This document shows positions 3,795 to 17,134 of a DNA stretch of 64,000 nucleotides, piece after piece. Position 1 is the first letter of the stretch. Each line of letters starts with the position of its first letter. Below the pieces are notes generated by a model. The model was not told the DNA's origin. It worked only from the letters and a program-made list of their open reading frames with translations, and searched no databases. The stretch is from Arenibacter sp. P308M17 (GTDB lineage: Bacteria > Bacteroidota > Bacteroidia > Flavobacteriales > Flavobacteriaceae): the NCBI RefSeq assembly GCF_003426735.1, contig NZ_QVON01000004.1:248001-312000 (forward strand), written 5' to 3'. The position numbers and the translations under genes are program-made.

Positions 3795-4182
3795 ATGAAT
3801 AAAATCATTGTAACCTGTGCAATTATTGAAAGTGAAAATCAAGTGCTTGTGGTTCAAAGAAGTGAAAACATGAAATTGCCCTTAAAATGGGAATTTCCAG
3901 GTGGGAAAATCGAAAAAGGAGAATCTGAACAAGATTGTTTAATACGAGAAATTAGGGAAGAATTAAATATTGAAATTGAACTAATGAAAAGGTTAACTCC
4001 TTCACCCCTTTTTTTATCCGAACATATTTATCGAATTGATTCCATTCATTGCTAAACAAGTTGGAGGTAGATTAAAATTAAAAGAACATGCCGATTTCAA
4101 ATATCTTGATAAAAGTAAATTATTAAACTTAGATTGGGCTGAAGCTGATGTTCCTATTGCAATAGAGTATTTAGCATTATGA
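3795..4182 (+). pseudogene. Nudix (MutT-like) hydrolase, frameshifted at a T7 run
   Basis: The first frame encodes 86 aa with a complete Nudix box (GGKIEKGESEQDCLIREIRE with the downstream EEL; residues about 36-57) and runs to a stop at 4053-4055. Removing one T from the seven-T run at 4009-4015 restores a frame that continues PNIFIELIPFIAKQ, then GGRLKL, EHADFKYL and NLDWAEADVPI to a TGA at 4180-4182. This is exactly the C-terminal half expected for a MutT-type (d)NTP pyrophosphohydrolase of about 128 aa. The restored frame overlaps the helicase start by four bases (ATGA), so the two genes were or are translationally coupled. The cause may be mutation, sequencing error or slippage. Confidence 0.8.
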
Positions 4183-7100
4183 AGGAAGGAATTTACGAAG
4201 AATTAGTTACGCAATTGGTTTCTCAAAAACTTGGGGATATTGATAAAAATGTTTTTTACATCAACAAATCTCAAATAGATAAAGAGGAAGCATCTTCAAT
4301 ACTATCAAAGCACTTGGCTCAAACTATTAAAAACGCATTGAACATTGTTAGGGGTGAAAATCAAATTGAATTACAAATTGAAATTGCCAACAAAATAATT
4401 TCCTTTTTGAAAGATGAACTCAAAAAAGAAGAATTTGATGATGATTTGATTGCCATTGAAGGCGAAGTTTTAAAAGCAGTATTTTCTAAAGTAGATGCAT
4501 ATTTTTCTGATATCAATTTGCATTTAAAAGAAATAACGCCATATACTCGTTTAACGCACAGCGAATTGTTTACGGGTGGTAATGTTGGAATATCTCTTGA
4601 AAGTGAGTTGAAAAAAGAAATTTTATCATCGGACAAAATAGACCTTTTGGTTTCATTCATAAAATTTAAAGGAATAATAATTCTTGAAAGAGAATTTGAA
4701 GAATTTACGAGAAAAGGAGGTCAGCTAAGAGTAATCACTACTACATACATGGGTGCGTCAGATTATAAAGCAATTCAGTTACTCTCGAAACTGGAAAACA
4801 CTCAAGTCAAAATTTCTTACAACTCTGGAAATGAAAGACTTCATGCCAAAGCATACTTGTTTAAAAGAAACTCGGGATTTGATACAGGTTATATTGGGTC
4901 ATCAAATTTTTCTCGCTCAGCCTTAACAGATGGTTTAGAATGGAATCTTAAGATAACAACAAAAGAGGTTAGACACATTATTGACAAATTTCAAAAGACT
5001 TTTGATTCTTATTGGCAAAGTGATGATTTTGAATTATTTGATGATTCCATACATAAAGAAAAACTAATCCAATCTTTAAATCAGGGCAAATCAGGAAAAA
5101 TATCGGATTTAAATCTATCATTTTTTGATATAAAACCATTCCCATTTCAATCCGAGATTTTAGAAAAATTAGAGGTAGAACGAACTGTTCATGACAGGAA
5201 TAAAAATCTAATTGTAGCTGCCACAGGAACGGGAAAAACAGTAATTTCGGCTTTTGATTATAAGAACTTTAGGGCTTCAAACAAATCAGCCAAACTATTA
5301 TTTCTCGCCCATAGAAAAGAAATACTGTTGCAATCCTTAACAACTTTTAGAGGTATTTTGAGAGATAATAATTTTGGAGAATTATGGGTAGATGGATTGG
5401 TGCCGGATAATTATGAATTTATATTCGCATCTGTCCAAACTATCAATAATCGATTAAAAGACTTTCATTTATCACCCGAATTTTTCGATTTTATCGTTAT
5501 TGATGAATGTCATCACATGACTGCCAATAGCTATCGCGGTATACTCGATTATTTCCAACCCAAAATATTGCTTGGCCTAACTGCAACTCCGGAAAGAATG
5601 GACGGAGGCGATATTCAAGAAGATTTTCAAAATAGAATCGCGGCAGAAATTCGATTGCCCGAAGCTTTAAATAGAAAGCTTTTGTGTCCCTTTCAATATT
5701 TTGGTATAACAGATAGTATAGATCTTACTAATGTTGGCTGGGAAAGAGGACGCTATATTGCTAGTGAATTATCATCTATCTACACTGCAAATGATAGAAG
5801 AGTCAGAGAAATTATAGATACCCTAGAGAAGTACACTAAAGACTTGAATGATGTTCGTGCTATTGGTTTTTGTGTATCAATGGAACACGCCAGGTATATG
5901 GCAGAAAAATTTTGCTTACCTGGTCTTAAAGCCGACTACCTTACTAGTGCAAACAATCAAAATAGAGATAAGATCAGAAACCAATTACTTAGTAAGGATA
6001 TTAATTATCTTTTTGTTGTAGATATTTTTAATGAAGGAATTGACATACCTGAAATAGACACAGTACTTTTTTTAAGACCTACCGAAAGTTTGACCATCTT
6101 TTTGCAACAGCTTGGTAGAGGATTGCGATTAGCTGAAAATAAAGACTGCCTTACTGTTCTAGATTTTGTCGGAAATTCAAGACCAGAATACAATTTTGAA
6201 AATAAGTTTCGTGCTTTAATTGGTAAAACAGCTAGAACGGTAAAAAAAGAAATAGAAGATAATTTTCCTCATTTACCACTCGGATGTTCGATTATCTTAG
6301 AAAAAAAGGCCAAGCAAACTATTTTAGAAAATATTAGTACGGCAACATCAGTCAACAGAAATCAATTAATTCAGAAAATTCAAAATTTTCAGCATCAATC
6401 AACCTTAGCGTTGAATTTGAAAAACTTTGTAAGCTTATATAATATACCCCTGCAAACGATTTATAAACGTGGCGGATGGAAAAGATTATGCCATGACGCA
6501 GGGAAGTTGAATGAATTTACCTCGAACTATGAAAAAGAAATTGTTAGGGCTATTTCTAGTAAATGGTTGTCATGCAGTTCAAATAGCTATTTTCAGTTTG
6601 TATTGAATCTTGCAAAAAAGAACTTTAATGTTAACCTTTCAGATTTCACTGAACTGGAGCGACAAATGCTTTTAATGTTACACTATGACATATGGCAAAC
6701 GGCTGGTGGGTTTGAATCTCTCGAACGAAGCATTAAAGAAGTTGGGAAAAATATAATACTAGTCGAAGAGATAATTGAAGTACTTGAAATTCTTATAGAT
6801 AAAATAGATTTTAAGGAAATAGAAATCACTTTACCATACCAGCAGCCATTAAAAGTTCACGCTCGCTATACAAGAGACCAAATCTTGGCAGCATTTCGTT
6901 TAAGTACTTTCCAGCGAAAGTCACCAAGTCGAGAAGGAGTAGCAGAAAATTCAGAATTAAACACTGAGCTACTATTTATAAATCTTATTAAGTCTGAAGA
7001 AAACTTTTCGCCAACCACCATGTATGATGATTATGCGATCAATGAAACATTATTTCATTGGCAAAGTCAAAATTCAGCTGGACCTGATACACCAAAAGGT

Positions 7101-7319
7101 CTTTCATATATTAAACACAAGAGTGAGAAAAAGAAAATTTTACTATTCGTTCGTGAGAAGAATAAAGATGAATACGGAAACACAATGGGGTATGTATTTG
7201 TAGGTGAAGGAATATTAAAAGATCACTATGGCGCTAAACCCATGAGTATTAAATGGGGATTGAATGAACCTATGCCACACTATTTATGGAAAGATGCTGC
7301 GAAATTGAGAGTTGGGTAG
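4179..7319 (+). CDS. PLD-nuclease / superfamily II helicase / DUF3427 protein
   Basis: The protein has 1046 aa. Residues about 130-270 form a phospholipase-D-like nuclease domain with HAKAYLF (about 222) and GSSNFSRSAL (about 240), one HKD-type site. A superfamily II helicase core follows: ATGTGKT (about 348), DECHH (about 442), TATPER (about 469) and QLGRGLRL (about 650). The C-terminal third resembles DUF3427, ending in a KPMSIKW...LNEPMPHYLWKDA segment. Family members of this build are usually annotated as DEAD/DEAH helicases and are often found with defence genes. The gene is far more AT-rich than its neighbours, suggesting horizontal transfer. Its four-base overlap with the Nudix frame implies one operon. 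DNA or RNA restriction is inferred, not shown. Confidence 0.85.
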   Translation: MKEGIYEELVTQLVSQKLGDIDKNVFYINKSQIDKEEASSILSKHLAQTIKNALNIVRGENQIELQIEIANKIISFLKDELKKEEFDDDLIAIEGEVLKAVFSKVDAYFSDINLHLKEITPYTRLTHSELFTGGNVGISLESELKKEILSSDKIDLLVSFIKFKGIIILEREFEEFTRKGGQLRVITTTYMGASDYKAIQLLSKLENTQVKISYNSGNERLHAKAYLFKRNSGFDTGYIGSSNFSRSALTDGLEWNLKITTKEVRHIIDKFQKTFDSYWQSDDFELFDDSIHKEKLIQSLNQGKSGKISDLNLSFFDIKPFPFQSEILEKLEVERTVHDRNKNLIVAATGTGKTVISAFDYKNFRASNKSAKLLFLAHRKEILLQSLTTFRGILRDNNFGELWVDGLVPDNYEFIFASVQTINNRLKDFHLSPEFFDFIVIDECHHMTANSYRGILDYFQPKILLGLTATPERMDGGDIQEDFQNRIAAEIRLPEALNRKLLCPFQYFGITDSIDLTNVGWERGRYIASELSSIYTANDRRVREIIDTLEKYTKDLNDVRAIGFCVSMEHARYMAEKFCLPGLKADYLTSANNQNRDKIRNQLLSKDINYLFVVDIFNEGIDIPEIDTVLFLRPTESLTIFLQQLGRGLRLAENKDCLTVLDFVGNSRPEYNFENKFRALIGKTARTVKKEIEDNFPHLPLGCSIILEKKAKQTILENISTATSVNRNQLIQKIQNFQHQSTLALNLKNFVSLYNIPLQTIYKRGGWKRLCHDAGKLNEFTSNYEKEIVRAISSKWLSCSSNSYFQFVLNLAKKNFNVNLSDFTELERQMLLMLHYDIWQTAGGFESLERSIKEVGKNIILVEEIIEVLEILIDKIDFKEIEITLPYQQPLKVHARYTRDQILAAFRLSTFQRKSPSREGVAENSELNTELLFINLIKSEENFSPTTMYDDYAINETLFHWQSQNSAGPDTPKGLSYIKHKSEKKKILLFVREKNKDEYGNTMGYVFVGEGILKDHYGAKPMSIKWGLNEPMPHYLWKDAAKLRVG

Positions 7320-12145: not shown

Positions 12146-14569
12146 ATGAAGCACCAACTCACATTACTACTTCTCCTTGGCTTAAGTTCCTTAGCTTTTT
12201 CACAGAACACAACAGTTAGTGGAACTATAAAGGACAACACCGATACCCCCTTACTTGGAGTGAATATCGCATTAAAAAATTCGCAGATCGGGACAGAGAG
12301 CGATGAAAATGGGCGTTTTGAGATCGCCAACCTTGATGAAGGTGGGCACATCCTATCCATTTCCTATCTTGGATTCAGGACCAGGGACATCCCATTTTCC
12401 ATCAGCAACGGAAAAGCAGTTGATCTGGGGGACTTGATATTATATGAAGGAAACGAAATACTTACCGAAGTGGTCGTTGAAGGAGAACGGATCAATAAAT
12501 TTTCAAGAAAGAAAACGGCCTATGTATCCAAACTCCCATTGAAGGATATAGAGAACACCCAGGTGTACAATACGATTACCACGGATCTATTGGAATCGCA
12601 AATAGTGACCAACTTTGACGATGCCCTTAAAAATGCCGCCGGGGTAGAAAACTTATGGACCTCCACCGGTAGGGGCGGTGATGGGGCCGGATACTATTCC
12701 ATGCGCGGATTCTCGGTGCAACCACAACTGGTAAATGGCCTGCCCGGTCTGACCAACGGCACCATAAACCCGGCAAATATTGAACGGATAGAAGTTTTAA
12801 AAGGTCCATCCGCCACTTTGTTCGGCAATGCGGTAAGCTCCTATGGCGGACTAATAAATGTGGTCACCAAAAAACCCTATGCCGGTAACGGGGGCGAACT
12901 TTCCTTTACCTCTGGCACTTATGGGCTAAATCAGATTACGGGCGATTTCAATACCGCACTCAACAAAAGTGAAAACCTTTATTTTAGGCTCAACACCTCT
13001 TACTCCACAGAACAAAGTTTTCAGGATGCCGGCTTTAGAAAGTCCTTTTTTGTTGCCCCTTCCCTATCCTACAAGGTAAACAACCGATTATCCTTCTCGT
13101 TCTACGGTGAAATTACACAGGCGGAACAGACCAATCCCATGTTTTTGTTCTTGAACAGAAGTGGGCCAACAGAGGCAGAAAATCTTGACGAACTGGGCTA
13201 CAACAATAAACTATCGTTTACCAGTAACGACCTGACCTTAGAAAATCCTACCCAGAATTACAGGGTAGAAATGGACTATAAATTGTCCGACACCTGGCAA
13301 TCCCAAACGCTCCTATCTAAGAGTTCCACATCTACCAAAGGGTACTATTCCTATCTGTTCGATTACGGTATCCTAGGGAACGATACCTTTTCCCGATTTA
13401 TCAACAAACAGAATGCCAATACCCAAACCACGGATATCCAACAAAATTTTATTGGCGATTTTAAAATTGCCACATTGAGAAATCGTATAGTTATAGGCCT
13501 GGACTATTTTAATGCCACTGCAACGGACAATAGTACCGGCTATGCCTTTTATGGCAACGTTACCCCCGAAGGCGGTGCCAATGGAGACGATCCCTTTACC
13601 ACAGAGGTGGAAACAGATCCATACCCGCTGTCCACGGCCGGTGTAGATGCGGTTTTGGCCTCCCAGGCCGTAGGGAACAATAAGTCCAAATATCATATTT
13701 ATAGTCTTTATGCCTCCGATGTTATAAATATTACCAATACGCTATCGGCAATGCTTGGGCTGCGCCTGGATTATTTTGATAACGAAGGCGATATGGCCAA
13801 TGTGGATGACGATTACGACCAGACCACCCTGTCCCCCAAGTTTGGACTGCTGTACCAACCCCTCTTGGATCAGCTTTCTATTTTCGCCAATTATCAAAAT
13901 GGTTTTACCAATGTGGCCCCCCAATTGGTAGGGGATGCGGGCGCTGGACCACAGACATTGAAAACATTTGACCCGGAGCAGGCCAATCAGTTGGAATTTG
14001 GTGTGAAGACCAACCTCTTTAACAATAGATTGAACGCCACGCTTAGTTACTATGACATTACCGTAAAGGACCGTGTAATAACCGACCCCTCCTCTCCCTT
14101 TAACAAGATCCAGGGCGGAGAAGTGGAAAGCAAAGGATTTGAAATTGAAATCAATGCCAATCCCTTTAAAGGTTTGAACCTTAGGGCCGGCTTCAGCAAT
14201 AACGACAGCGAGACTACAAAATCCGACAATACCGAGATATTGAATAGAAGACCCTTGGAAGCTGGTCCGGAAACACAGTATAATTTTTGGGCCAATTATG
14301 AATTGCAAGAGGGCCAATTGGACGGTTTTGGAATAGGATTGGGATTTAACGGGGCAAGTGAGCGTTTTGCCATAAACTATGCTTCCACTGGAGAATTTAT
14401 CCTGCCAAGCTATACCATTGCCAATGCCTCCCTTTATTACCAAGCCAATAGGTACCGAATTGGCCTAAAGCTGAACAATGCCTTTAACAAGGAATATTAC
14501 AAAGGTTGGTCTACCATCAACCCCCAGACGCCTAGGGTGTTATTGGCCAATTTTACTTACAAATTTTAA
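12146..14569 (+). CDS. TonB-dependent siderophore-type receptor
   Basis: The 807-aa protein has a signal peptide (residues 1-19, ending AFSQ), a carboxypeptidase-D-like regulatory domain (25-100, TVSGTIKDNTDTPLLGVNI), a plug domain (about 115-235, with YSMRGFS and IERIEVLKGPSATLFGN) and a 22-strand barrel ending in an aromatic residue (NFTYKF). The plug wording is typical of ferric-siderophore receptors, so it probably imports an iron chelate across the outer membrane. A PepSY membrane protein follows after 36 bases, a common partner in iron-uptake loci. No Fur box was identified. Confidence 0.88.
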   Translation: MKHQLTLLLLLGLSSLAFSQNTTVSGTIKDNTDTPLLGVNIALKNSQIGTESDENGRFEIANLDEGGHILSISYLGFRTRDIPFSISNGKAVDLGDLILYEGNEILTEVVVEGERINKFSRKKTAYVSKLPLKDIENTQVYNTITTDLLESQIVTNFDDALKNAAGVENLWTSTGRGGDGAGYYSMRGFSVQPQLVNGLPGLTNGTINPANIERIEVLKGPSATLFGNAVSSYGGLINVVTKKPYAGNGGELSFTSGTYGLNQITGDFNTALNKSENLYFRLNTSYSTEQSFQDAGFRKSFFVAPSLSYKVNNRLSFSFYGEITQAEQTNPMFLFLNRSGPTEAENLDELGYNNKLSFTSNDLTLENPTQNYRVEMDYKLSDTWQSQTLLSKSSTSTKGYYSYLFDYGILGNDTFSRFINKQNANTQTTDIQQNFIGDFKIATLRNRIVIGLDYFNATATDNSTGYAFYGNVTPEGGANGDDPFTTEVETDPYPLSTAGVDAVLASQAVGNNKSKYHIYSLYASDVINITNTLSAMLGLRLDYFDNEGDMANVDDDYDQTTLSPKFGLLYQPLLDQLSIFANYQNGFTNVAPQLVGDAGAGPQTLKTFDPEQANQLEFGVKTNLFNNRLNATLSYYDITVKDRVITDPSSPFNKIQGGEVESKGFEIEINANPFKGLNLRAGFSNNDSETTKSDNTEILNRRPLEAGPETQYNFWANYELQEGQLDGFGIGLGFNGASERFAINYASTGEFILPSYTIANASLYYQANRYRIGLKLNNAFNKEYYKGWSTINPQTPRVLLANFTYKF

Positions 14570-14605: not shown

Positions 14606-15760
14606 ATGAAATTTAGAAAAATCATTTTTGAACTTCATAAGATCCTAGGCCTTATTAGTGGTGTAGTGGTGTTCATTGTGGCCATTACGGGCTGTTGTTG
14701 GGTTTTTAAGGAGGAGTTGCAAGGCCTGAACGACGACTATAAAAAAGTGGTTCCGCAGGACAAACCCGTGCTTACGGTATCGGAGGCCAAAATGTTTGCC
14801 CAGGAAGTATTTCCCGATAAAAGCATTCATGGTTCCCTGTACCAAAAGGCGGACGATGCCATTGAGGTAATATTTTATGAACTGGAACCGGAATTTTACC
14901 AAAGTGTTTTTCTAAATCCATATTCGGGAAAGGTGATTCAGGTAGAAGACCATCTTTCGGGCTTTTTTGCCTTTGTTTTGAAAGGGCATATGCGGTTATG
15001 GCTACCCACAGAAATTGGTGAGCAGGTGGTAGGCGTATCTATCCTTGTCTTTATATTTATCCTTATTTCCGGGCTTGTTTTGTGGGTGCCAAAAAAACGA
15101 AAGAACTTGGATCAGCGTATAAAATTCAAGTGGAAAGATAGTACGCGATGGAAGCGTAAAAATTTTGACCTACATGCGATAATCGGATTTTATATTTGCT
15201 CCCTAGCCCTGATCCTTGCCTTTACAGGCTCCATAATGTCTTACGAATGGCTGCAGTCCGCCTTCTACAAATCGATTGGCGGGGAAAAGGAAATCTCCTT
15301 TTATATCCCTGAAAACAAGGCATCCGAAGGCCTTGACAAAGATACAAAACCAATAGACCTCTTACTTCCGAAGCTACAAAAGGAATCTCCCTTGGCCGAA
15401 GATTTTGAACTACATTATCCCCATTCTGATGATGAAAGTATCTATGTGGAAATTTCCAATAGCAAAGGGCTCTTTTACGATGCCGACTTCCGCTATTTTG
15501 ATCAACATACCTTGGAAGAAATAGAGACCGATGGCATTTACGGGAAATATAAGAATGCCAAGGTTGCGGATAAAATTATGCGTATGAATTACGACATCCA
15601 CATTGGGGCCATTGGTGGTATTGTTGGAAAGATTATTGCTTTTTTGGTCAGCCTACTGGCAGCAAGTTTGCCGGTTACCGGAATACTATTATGGTATGGT
15701 AGAACCTATAAAAAAAATAAACCTATAAAAAATAATCGTATTTTAAGCCCTAATAATTAA
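14606..15760 (+). CDS. PepSY-associated membrane protein
   Basis: The 384-aa protein has four probable membrane helices: residues about 12-35 (GLISGVVVFIVAITGCCWVF), 140-162, 195-215 and 340-365. The soluble parts between them fit PepSY domains. The start RKIIFELHKILGLISG and the HMRLWLP and DLHAIIGFY segments match the PepSY_TM family, thought to act in reductive iron release from siderophores at the inner membrane. Its place directly after a siderophore-type receptor supports that. It is probably co-transcribed with the receptor. Confidence 0.83.
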   Translation: MKFRKIIFELHKILGLISGVVVFIVAITGCCWVFKEELQGLNDDYKKVVPQDKPVLTVSEAKMFAQEVFPDKSIHGSLYQKADDAIEVIFYELEPEFYQSVFLNPYSGKVIQVEDHLSGFFAFVLKGHMRLWLPTEIGEQVVGVSILVFIFILISGLVLWVPKKRKNLDQRIKFKWKDSTRWKRKNFDLHAIIGFYICSLALILAFTGSIMSYEWLQSAFYKSIGGEKEISFYIPENKASEGLDKDTKPIDLLLPKLQKESPLAEDFELHYPHSDDESIYVEISNSKGLFYDADFRYFDQHTLEEIETDGIYGKYKNAKVADKIMRMNYDIHIGAIGGIVGKIIAFLVSLLAASLPVTGILLWYGRTYKKNKPIKNNRILSPNN

Positions 15761-15849: not shown

Positions 15850-16524
15850 ATGAAGTTTAGTTTTAAGTTTTTACCTCTAAAGGATCTGTTCTATTCCATT
15901 TTCCCAACTGTTGGGACCTACGGCGGATATATACAGGGGGTGGCCCCATCATTTTTTCCAAACTTATGGATCGCTGTTGGGATTGGGCTGGTCATCTCGG
16001 TAATCCTGGCCGTCATATTTTATAAGGAAAATGTAAAAGCGTTTAAAAAGTCGTTGGCCGAGATATTGGCCACCGGATATTTTATGAATTTTACAGGACG
16101 TTTTGGGAAACTTCTCAAGACCAGGACACCTATTCATTTTTCATTTCCGGACGATACTATAAGAACCTTTACCGCCGATAAAATAACCGTTGAAGTGGGT
16201 ATGCCCTCCAGCCTGAAATCCCTGACGGAATATGCCGAAATGGTAGAAAACAAATTTGATATTGTTTATGTTCGCGAAGCTACCTATAGTGAGCCATTTT
16301 GGCTACGGGCGCAAATAGTTGGGGACGATAGACTAATTATCCATGAATTTCCCAGAACTTTGTTCTCCCTCTCTAGGTATTTAAAGGACGATTTTTTGGA
16401 TCAGCACATGGCCGAAAAGAACTCGAAAAAAATCTATTCTTTTTTTCAACATAAAATAGAACAGTTGCGAATTGAATATTCCAGTGAAATTTCCAATGAC
16501 CGTTTAATTTTTAGACCCATCTAA
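15850..16524 (+). CDS. Membrane-anchored STING-like protein (TM-STING candidate)
   Basis: The 224-aa protein has an N-terminal membrane region (strong helix at about 36-58, weaker segment at about 10-32) and a soluble domain of about 150 residues. The soluble part begins LATGYFMNFTGRFGKLL (74-90), matching the first STING helix with its ligand-stacking aromatic. Later come a VYVREATY strand pair and LIIHEFPRTLFSLSRY (163-177), which lines up with the ligand-binding turn written EYATPLQTLF in human STING and, from memory, D-I-P-T-T-L in bacterial ones. Bacterial STINGs bind cyclic dinucleotides and trigger effectors in CBASS. No CD-NTase or GGDEF gene lies in the window, so this copy would be an orphan. 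The assignment is motif-based. Confidence 0.58.
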   Translation: MKFSFKFLPLKDLFYSIFPTVGTYGGYIQGVAPSFFPNLWIAVGIGLVISVILAVIFYKENVKAFKKSLAEILATGYFMNFTGRFGKLLKTRTPIHFSFPDDTIRTFTADKITVEVGMPSSLKSLTEYAEMVENKFDIVYVREATYSEPFWLRAQIVGDDRLIIHEFPRTLFSLSRYLKDDFLDQHMAEKNSKKIYSFFQHKIEQLRIEYSSEISNDRLIFRPI

Positions 16525-16651: not shown

Positions 16652-17134
16652 ATGATATTCAATATCCAATTGAAATTGGCCCAAACCGCAAGCGACTTCG
16701 CACAAGCAAAAAAATTAATCTTGGAATATGTTGCCTGGTTGGGCATTGATCTGTCCTTTCAAAATTTTGACAAGGAAATGGAAACCCTTCCAAAAATGTA
16801 TGGCCCCAACGAAGGTGGGCTATTTATTGCCTTTAGGAACGGAGAAGCTGTTGGGATAGCCGGACTACGAAAATTCAACGGACAGGATGCCGAGCTAAAA
16901 AGAATGTATGTACGGCCCGAAAGTAGAGGTTTGGGTATAGGGCAATTGCTGTTAAGTGCATGCATGGAAACGGCAAAAAAGCTAAATTACAAGAGTATAA
17001 AACTGGATACTGCAGATTTTATGAAATCGGCTATTAAACTGTATACGGACAACGGTTTTGTTGAAATAGGGGCATACCGCCACAATCCCCATGAATCGGC
17101 ACGGTATTTTGAACTAAAATTGATTACGGAATAA
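16652..17134 (+). CDS. GNAT family N-acetyltransferase
   Basis: The 160-aa protein carries the acetyl-CoA-binding motif A (MYVRPESRGLGIGQLLL, residues about 88-104, R-G-x-G-x-G core) and a C-terminal KLYTDNGFVEIGAYR segment typical of small-molecule acetyltransferases. The substrate is not predictable. It lies 127 bases after the STING-like gene on the same strand; co-transcription is possible but not indicated. Confidence 0.85.
   Translation: MIFNIQLKLAQTASDFAQAKKLILEYVAWLGIDLSFQNFDKEMETLPKMYGPNEGGLFIAFRNGEAVGIAGLRKFNGQDAELKRMYVRPESRGLGIGQLLLSACMETAKKLNYKSIKLDTADFMKSAIKLYTDNGFVEIGAYRHNPHESARYFELKLITE

Follow-up and report, generated by a model that had tools for sequence, protein, structure and literature searches.

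A single accessory gene in the 64,000-nucleotide stretch of Arenibacter sp. P308M17 DNA analysed here (the window) encodes a protein of the STING superfamily that has the STING fold and an N-terminal membrane segment, and its relatives constitute a conserved family, not a stray gene. The protein stands outside CBASS as defined and in neither lid class of bacterial STING. In the aligned sequences, the family, referred to here as orphan, retains the side of the ligand pocket that handles base stacking and phosphate, but the lid arginine that reads guanine has been lost and an invariant arginine has been gained in the pocket floor; given this altered pocket and the fact that no partner cyclase was found, the signal that these proteins recognise may differ from the messenger usual for bacterial STING.

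The gene occupies positions 15850..16524 of the forward strand, with an ATG at 15850, a stop codon ending at 16524 and a product of 224 aa, and stops interrupt the one antisense frame translated over the same interval. The product matched the Pfam profile prok_STING (PF20300) over residues 70-194 (16057..16431, forward strand) with E=1.2e-18 and 67.8 bits against a curated cut-off of 27.1, being the sole STING match in the genome; together with the Foldseek matches to PDB chains, this delimits the cyclic-dinucleotide-binding domain. NCBIfam yielded only chance matches below cut-off, and the sole PADLOC match was the TIR-STING model, reached via its STING part, the TIR domain being absent. When PDB chains were searched with the window sequence alone (phmmer), the best solved chain was the Larkinella arboricola STING 8hwi (E=3.8e-5), and FsSTING gave no match at E<=10. 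With a 25-row family profile, 8hwi was recovered at E=1.9e-12 along with five further bacterial STING chains, namely 8hwj, 7ebl, 9lmq, 6wt4 (FsSTING, 0.0019) and, weakly, 7ebd (0.051), plus one unrelated chain at 0.71. Two mCpol chains matched by phmmer (E 0.026-0.032) were taken as chance matches, as they disappeared in the family-profile search. Furthermore, an AlphaFold monomer model built from 25 family sequences (mean pLDDT 82.5, pTM 0.72, with residues 1-40 at about 50-61) matched only STINGs in the PDB at E<=0.001 (35/35 Foldseek matches, bacterial ranked ahead of animal). The best TM-score was 0.73 by target length (8hwj_B) and 0.53 by query length, the latter being low because the membrane part is unmatched; no viral fold was matched at E<=0.001. 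Thus, profile, PDB sequence match and predicted fold all bear out the STING-like identity proposed in a preliminary description, the matches being to STINGs and to no unrelated family. Both pocket peptides quoted in that description are present, displaced by about one residue from the numbering given there: LATGYFMNFTGRFGKLL corresponds to residues 73-89 and LIIHEFPRTLFSLSRY to residues 162-177.

The membrane anchoring proposed at the same time is confirmed for both the gene and the family, which display the TM-STING architecture, i.e., N-terminal membrane helices fused to STING. The transmembrane helix at residues 38-58 (15961..16023, forward strand; hydropathy 2.87) is continuous with the STING stem, the model placing both in a single helix spanning residues 39-90. 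This second membrane helix is strong in 27/27 family rows (hydropathy 1.99-3.08), and in all of them the 15 residues that follow it contain 3-4 K/R versus 1-2 D/E. The N-terminal helix at residues 10-28 (15877..15933, forward strand) is weakly hydrophobic (best 19-residue hydropathy 0.84) and could be either a first membrane segment or an amphipathic one; it is modelled as a helix at low confidence, with a block pLDDT of about 60. Hydropathy of this segment is weak in most family rows (0.68-1.37) and clearly higher in five (1.69-2.04; L034, L035, L036, L070 and L071). A two-pass hairpin with the N-terminus and the STING domain in the cytoplasm is thus a putative arrangement.

A contig scan recovered at least 24 relatives in 24 other Bacteroidota/Balneolota genomes, with 30-86% identity to the window protein, this count being a lower bound because the scan depends on two short patterns. 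They were found in Arenibacter, Confluentibacter, Marixanthotalea, Flaviramulus, Muriicola, Lentiprolixibacter, Mucilaginibacter and Rhodohalobacter, as well as in Chitinophagaceae MAGs and one Prolixibacteraceae MAG. The prok_STING profile was matched in 10/299 genomes of the window's taxonomic family (6/10 being of the window's type) and in 16/395 genomes of a phylum sample. In a 47-row tree, the 25 orphan rows form one side of a branch with a support of 87/84 (not starred), and the orphan grouping requires one change among grouped rows in 200/200 bootstrap trees, a count that leaves out seven ungrouped rows and comes from a tree with several long branches flagged. Values of dN/dS were 0.02-0.09 (two methods together) in the six measurable of nine pairs; synonymous sites were saturated in the other three, and the window's own pairs are near saturation (dS about 1.5). 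A viral or plasmid origin was considered and rejected, since tblastn gave no match to the orphan STING in phages or plasmids, and viral contigs contained no confirmed relative.

The ligand pocket was compared in a MAFFT alignment of 27 orphan rows against 22 others (18 other STING loci and four solved chains), taking the roles of pocket residues from PMC8748872 and PMC10739871. The stem-helix side, YFMNF (residues 77-81, 16078..16092, forward strand), is invariant in 27/27 rows; Y77, N80 and F81 match Y165, N168 and F169 of ElSTING, and F81 also matches F92 of FsSTING. These three residues, like P168, T170 and L171 of the floor, are invariant in the orphan family. The lid (residues 143-153, 16276..16308, forward strand) carries Y146 in place of the arginine, then the acidic E148, followed by P149-F-W151-L-R153, with W151 invariant and R153 kept in 24/27 orphan rows. 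Bacterial STINGs of class I and class II are recognised by the lid motifs Rx(Y/F) and RxR, respectively (Ko et al., 2022, PMC8748872); the window protein has Y146-S-E148 and matches neither. The arginine itself (R151 of FsSTING, R233 of PcSTING) is present in 1/27 orphan rows versus 20/22 others (Fisher 1.6e-10), and the stacking position (R153 of FsSTING, Y235 of PcSTING) is Glu or Asp in 21/27. Conversely, the floor, EFPRTL (residues 166-171, 16345..16362, forward strand), displays the family-specific R169 at the position of T255 of PcSTING, which is Arg in 27/27 orphan rows versus 1/22 others (Fisher 5.6e-13); both P-values overstate independence, as the rows are related. Mean identity across ten pocket positions was 0.96 versus 0.63 in the rest of the domain, these positions being hand-picked, with two of them (84 and 151) outside the contacts reported in PMC8748872 and PMC10739871.

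The preliminary description had singled out a Glu and an Arg at positions tied to c-di-GMP recognition. Both are present, and the Arg (R169) does distinguish the family; however, the Glu is uninformative, since at position 166 the acidic residue is Glu in 20 of the 27 rows and Asp in the other 7, and the Arg occupies a site in contact with phosphate and ribose and not with the base (PMC8748872). The strongest difference in the pocket, loss of the guanine-reading lid arginine in 26/27 rows, had been overlooked. Owing to this loss, the sequence argues against c-di-GMP as the ligand, and the orphan STING may reasonably be supposed to bind a different one.

The absence of a partner cyclase, which gave the gene its initial designation as an orphan, holds on wider inspection. 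No CD-NTase was found beside the gene; the window's own genome contained no SMODS CD-NTase at E<=1 and neither GGDEF nor mCpol at E<=0.001; and the PADLOC CdnE model (E<=0.01) found none in 25/25 orphan genomes, the window's included, while recovering CdnE in 3/3 control genomes, each time at the STING locus. Using a profile of three CdnE proteins against 409 locus proteins in all, none was found among the ORFs of 27 orphan loci, and CdnE adjoined 9/18 non-orphan STING loci (three of the nine being the profile's own seeds). A missing adjacent CdnE is not unique to the orphan family, as the other 9/18 non-orphan loci also lack it, including one TIR-STING (L069). Among the 24 other carriers, a SMODS-type CD-NTase was found elsewhere in the genome in 6 and in none of the remaining 18; GGDEF was found in 0/11 genomes searched, six of them carriers, and mCpol (OptS) in 0/25 carriers. 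These CD-NTase searches cover the SMODS and CdnE models, and many carrier genomes are MAGs.

Some STING loci outside the family deserve mention on their own account. In L003 (645-2073) and L074 (143-2100), a prok_STING gene is abutted upstream by a cytidine/MafB19-like deaminase gene (PF00383, 5.7e-15 and 2.7e-15), with no CdnE in the locus DNA examined, and the two genes may form a deaminase-STING pair. L072 and L073 encode RxR-type TM-STINGs with DFPTTL and no CdnE in the approximately 3.4 kb examined. L012 is the second STING of genome G110, which also carries an orphan-type STING; its membrane-type product resembles STING very distantly (31 bits), likewise with no CdnE in the DNA examined.

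We hold it to be an evenly balanced proposition that the protein is a single-gene, ligand-gated membrane effector acting without a dedicated cyclase, a reading in which both mechanism and ligand are conjectural. The protein would act as a dimer with its N-terminus and STING domain in the cytoplasm, and its ligand would be a phosphate-bearing compound from an enzyme outside the operon of the STING itself, probably a cyclic (di)nucleotide but not c-di-GMP. Binding between protomers would close the lid and turn the stem helices; as the stem runs on into the membrane helix, this could drive lateral oligomers like those of TIR-STING filaments (PMC9402430), which would disturb the inner membrane in the manner of other TM effectors (PMC10419184). 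The outcome would be a growth stop of infected or stressed cells, so that the overall logic would be that of a CBASS membrane effector with its cyclase uncoupled. A broader and more tentative proposal, in which we place somewhat less than even confidence, is that a whole branch of bacterial STING has left CBASS to become single-gene receptors without a dedicated cyclase, the key arginine having moved from lid to floor and the nucleotide having another origin; such a nucleotide could be a housekeeping messenger, come from a different defence system, or be a signal made by a phage or a neighbouring cell.

Among the alternatives, the protein could be a c-di-AMP receptor that reads the housekeeping c-di-AMP of a chromosomal CdaA-type cyclase and serves membrane signalling or gating instead of phage defence, which we regard as unlikely. 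According to PMC10739871, ElSTING holds c-di-AMP by Y165, N168, F169, P233, L234, T254 and T255, with the lid Arg and the aromatic residue pointing away; the orphan family keeps Y77, N80, F81, P149 and T170, and the two lid residues it has lost are precisely the outward-pointing ones, which favours this reading, although T254 of ElSTING corresponds to Arg in the family, and c-di-AMP bound ElTIR-STING without activating it (PMC10739871). A DAC-domain cyclase is encoded in 20/25 carriers, including the window's genome; however, its presence says little because nearly every genome of the window's taxonomic family has one (142/149), and an enrichment of DAC with the orphan STING was looked for and not seen. 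Further, the five carriers without a detectable DAC (four Chitinophagaceae MAGs and one unplaced Bacteroidetes MAG, a fifth Chitinophagaceae locus having DAC) speak against such a receptor, as does the patchy occurrence of the gene, found in 3/18 genomes of the genus Arenibacter, unlike a housekeeping receptor.

A second alternative, which we consider quite improbable, is a guard of inverted logic in the manner of Panoptes OptE, in which a resident nucleotide would keep the STING off, and phage enzymes or sponges removing this nucleotide would release it. OptE provides the precedent: this 2TM protein carries a cyclic-dinucleotide-binding domain, and its own ligand inhibits it (PMC12657218). 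The design also suits a lone receptor without an inducible cyclase. Against it, Panoptes carries its own synthase gene, of the mCpol type that was found in none of the 25 carriers, and neither a sequence nor a fold tie to OptE was found.

It is likewise quite improbable that the gene is a leftover of CBASS, or that it responds in trans to an unlinked CD-NTase. The SMODS-type enzymes found elsewhere in six of the other carriers would provide a source for an in-trans signal, yet the window's genome and the 18 others have neither a SMODS nor a CdnE match, within the clades covered above; and the low dN/dS and the invariant pocket argue against a decaying leftover.

As to a functional partnership with the adjacent PepSY/TonB iron-uptake genes, it is hardly credible: a PepSY-TM gene does lie within two genes of the STING at 6/25 loci, in two arrangements, but the TonB-PepSY pair occurs without STING in 4/7 Arenibacter genomes, Confluentibacter lentus L018 keeps the other neighbours with PepSY missing, and 19/25 loci have no PepSY among the clustered ORFs. 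The neighbours in the window, correctly described beforehand as PepSY (14606-15760) and GNAT (16652-17134), with a TonB receptor at 12146-14569, look instead like bystanders, since four sister genomes with the PepSY locus lack the STING. Seven Arenibacter genomes carry the TonB-PepSY locus, three of them with the STING after PepSY (in one, with an ORF between); among the four with no STING at the site, two continue directly from PepSY to GNAT across gaps of 65 and 77 bases, a third carries a 346-aa gene at this position, and the fourth has different downstream genes. Thus, the STING gene comes and goes between the same neighbours as a lone cargo gene, and PepSY, TonB and GNAT were rejected as its partners. 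Clustering of the ORFs of 25 loci revealed no conserved partner across unrelated contexts, shared neighbours being common to close relatives only, except for the PepSY-TM gene. The orphan STING genes lie outside defence islands, with PADLOC at 1e-5 matching 2/89 flanking proteins (mad2 and PDC-S11), and promoter and terminator scans around the gene were uninformative.

Other genes of these surroundings were recorded separately. At 4179-7316 (forward strand), about 8.5 kb from the STING, the window encodes a 1046-aa protein matching the PADLOC type IV methyl-directed restriction enzyme (4.8e-230), and the HerA, mad8, PD-T4-6 and PDC-M43B models each matched some window protein. In a Rhodohalobacter subclade, a small same-strand gene upstream of the orphan STING ends at or near the STING start (L034:7423-8639, L035:5683-6833, L070:808-1968 and L071:1411-2627); the L070 copy matches DUF4440/SnoaL, and those of L034 and L035 cluster together.

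The solo TM-STING resembles several known systems without coinciding with any. FsSTING-type TM-STINGs of CBASS (class II, RxR lid; 6WT4, L010 and L011) share the STING domain behind N-terminal membrane helices, a size of about 220-240 aa and an origin in Flavobacteriaceae, but they have CdnE directly upstream, an RxR lid and DFPNTL, and lie elsewhere in the tree; FsSTING itself is probably of TM type, judging from L010, L011 and PMC10732462. TIR-STING (Cap12) of CBASS (class I, Rx(Y/F) lid) shares the STING fold and the stacking aromatic, Asn, acidic residue and Pro of the pocket, whereas a TIR NADase effector replaces the membrane segment, the lid arginine is present and c-di-GMP comes from CdnE. 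Panoptes OptE and CBASS Cap15 (S-2TM-beta) likewise combine two membrane segments with a cyclic-nucleotide-binding domain, which is a beta-barrel sensor instead of STING, and their synthase gene is adjacent. The standalone STINGs of choanoflagellates also have no detectable cyclase in the genome; they are eukaryotic and bind 3'3'-c-di-GMP (PMC12424679), whereas the bacterial orphan family has no lid arginine.

The literature examined presents bacterial STING as an effector of CBASS that is supplied by a cyclase of its own; choanoflagellates and fungi are reported to have STING that lacks a cyclase (PMC12424679). Bacterial TM-STINGs are already known, and PMC10732462 calls their function unclear; PMC10739871, citing Burroughs and Aravind, mentions bacterial STINGs lacking the lid motifs and a DisA-linked STING. 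No bacterial family of lone STINGs was found in these sources, and it may have been noticed before in Morehouse et al. (2020) or Burroughs and Aravind (2020). If the proposed reading is true, bacteria too would have separated STING sensing from cGAS-like enzymes, as has recently been reported for some choanoflagellates, and the orphan family offers small, single-gene and directly testable proteins for learning how bacterial TM-STINGs work.
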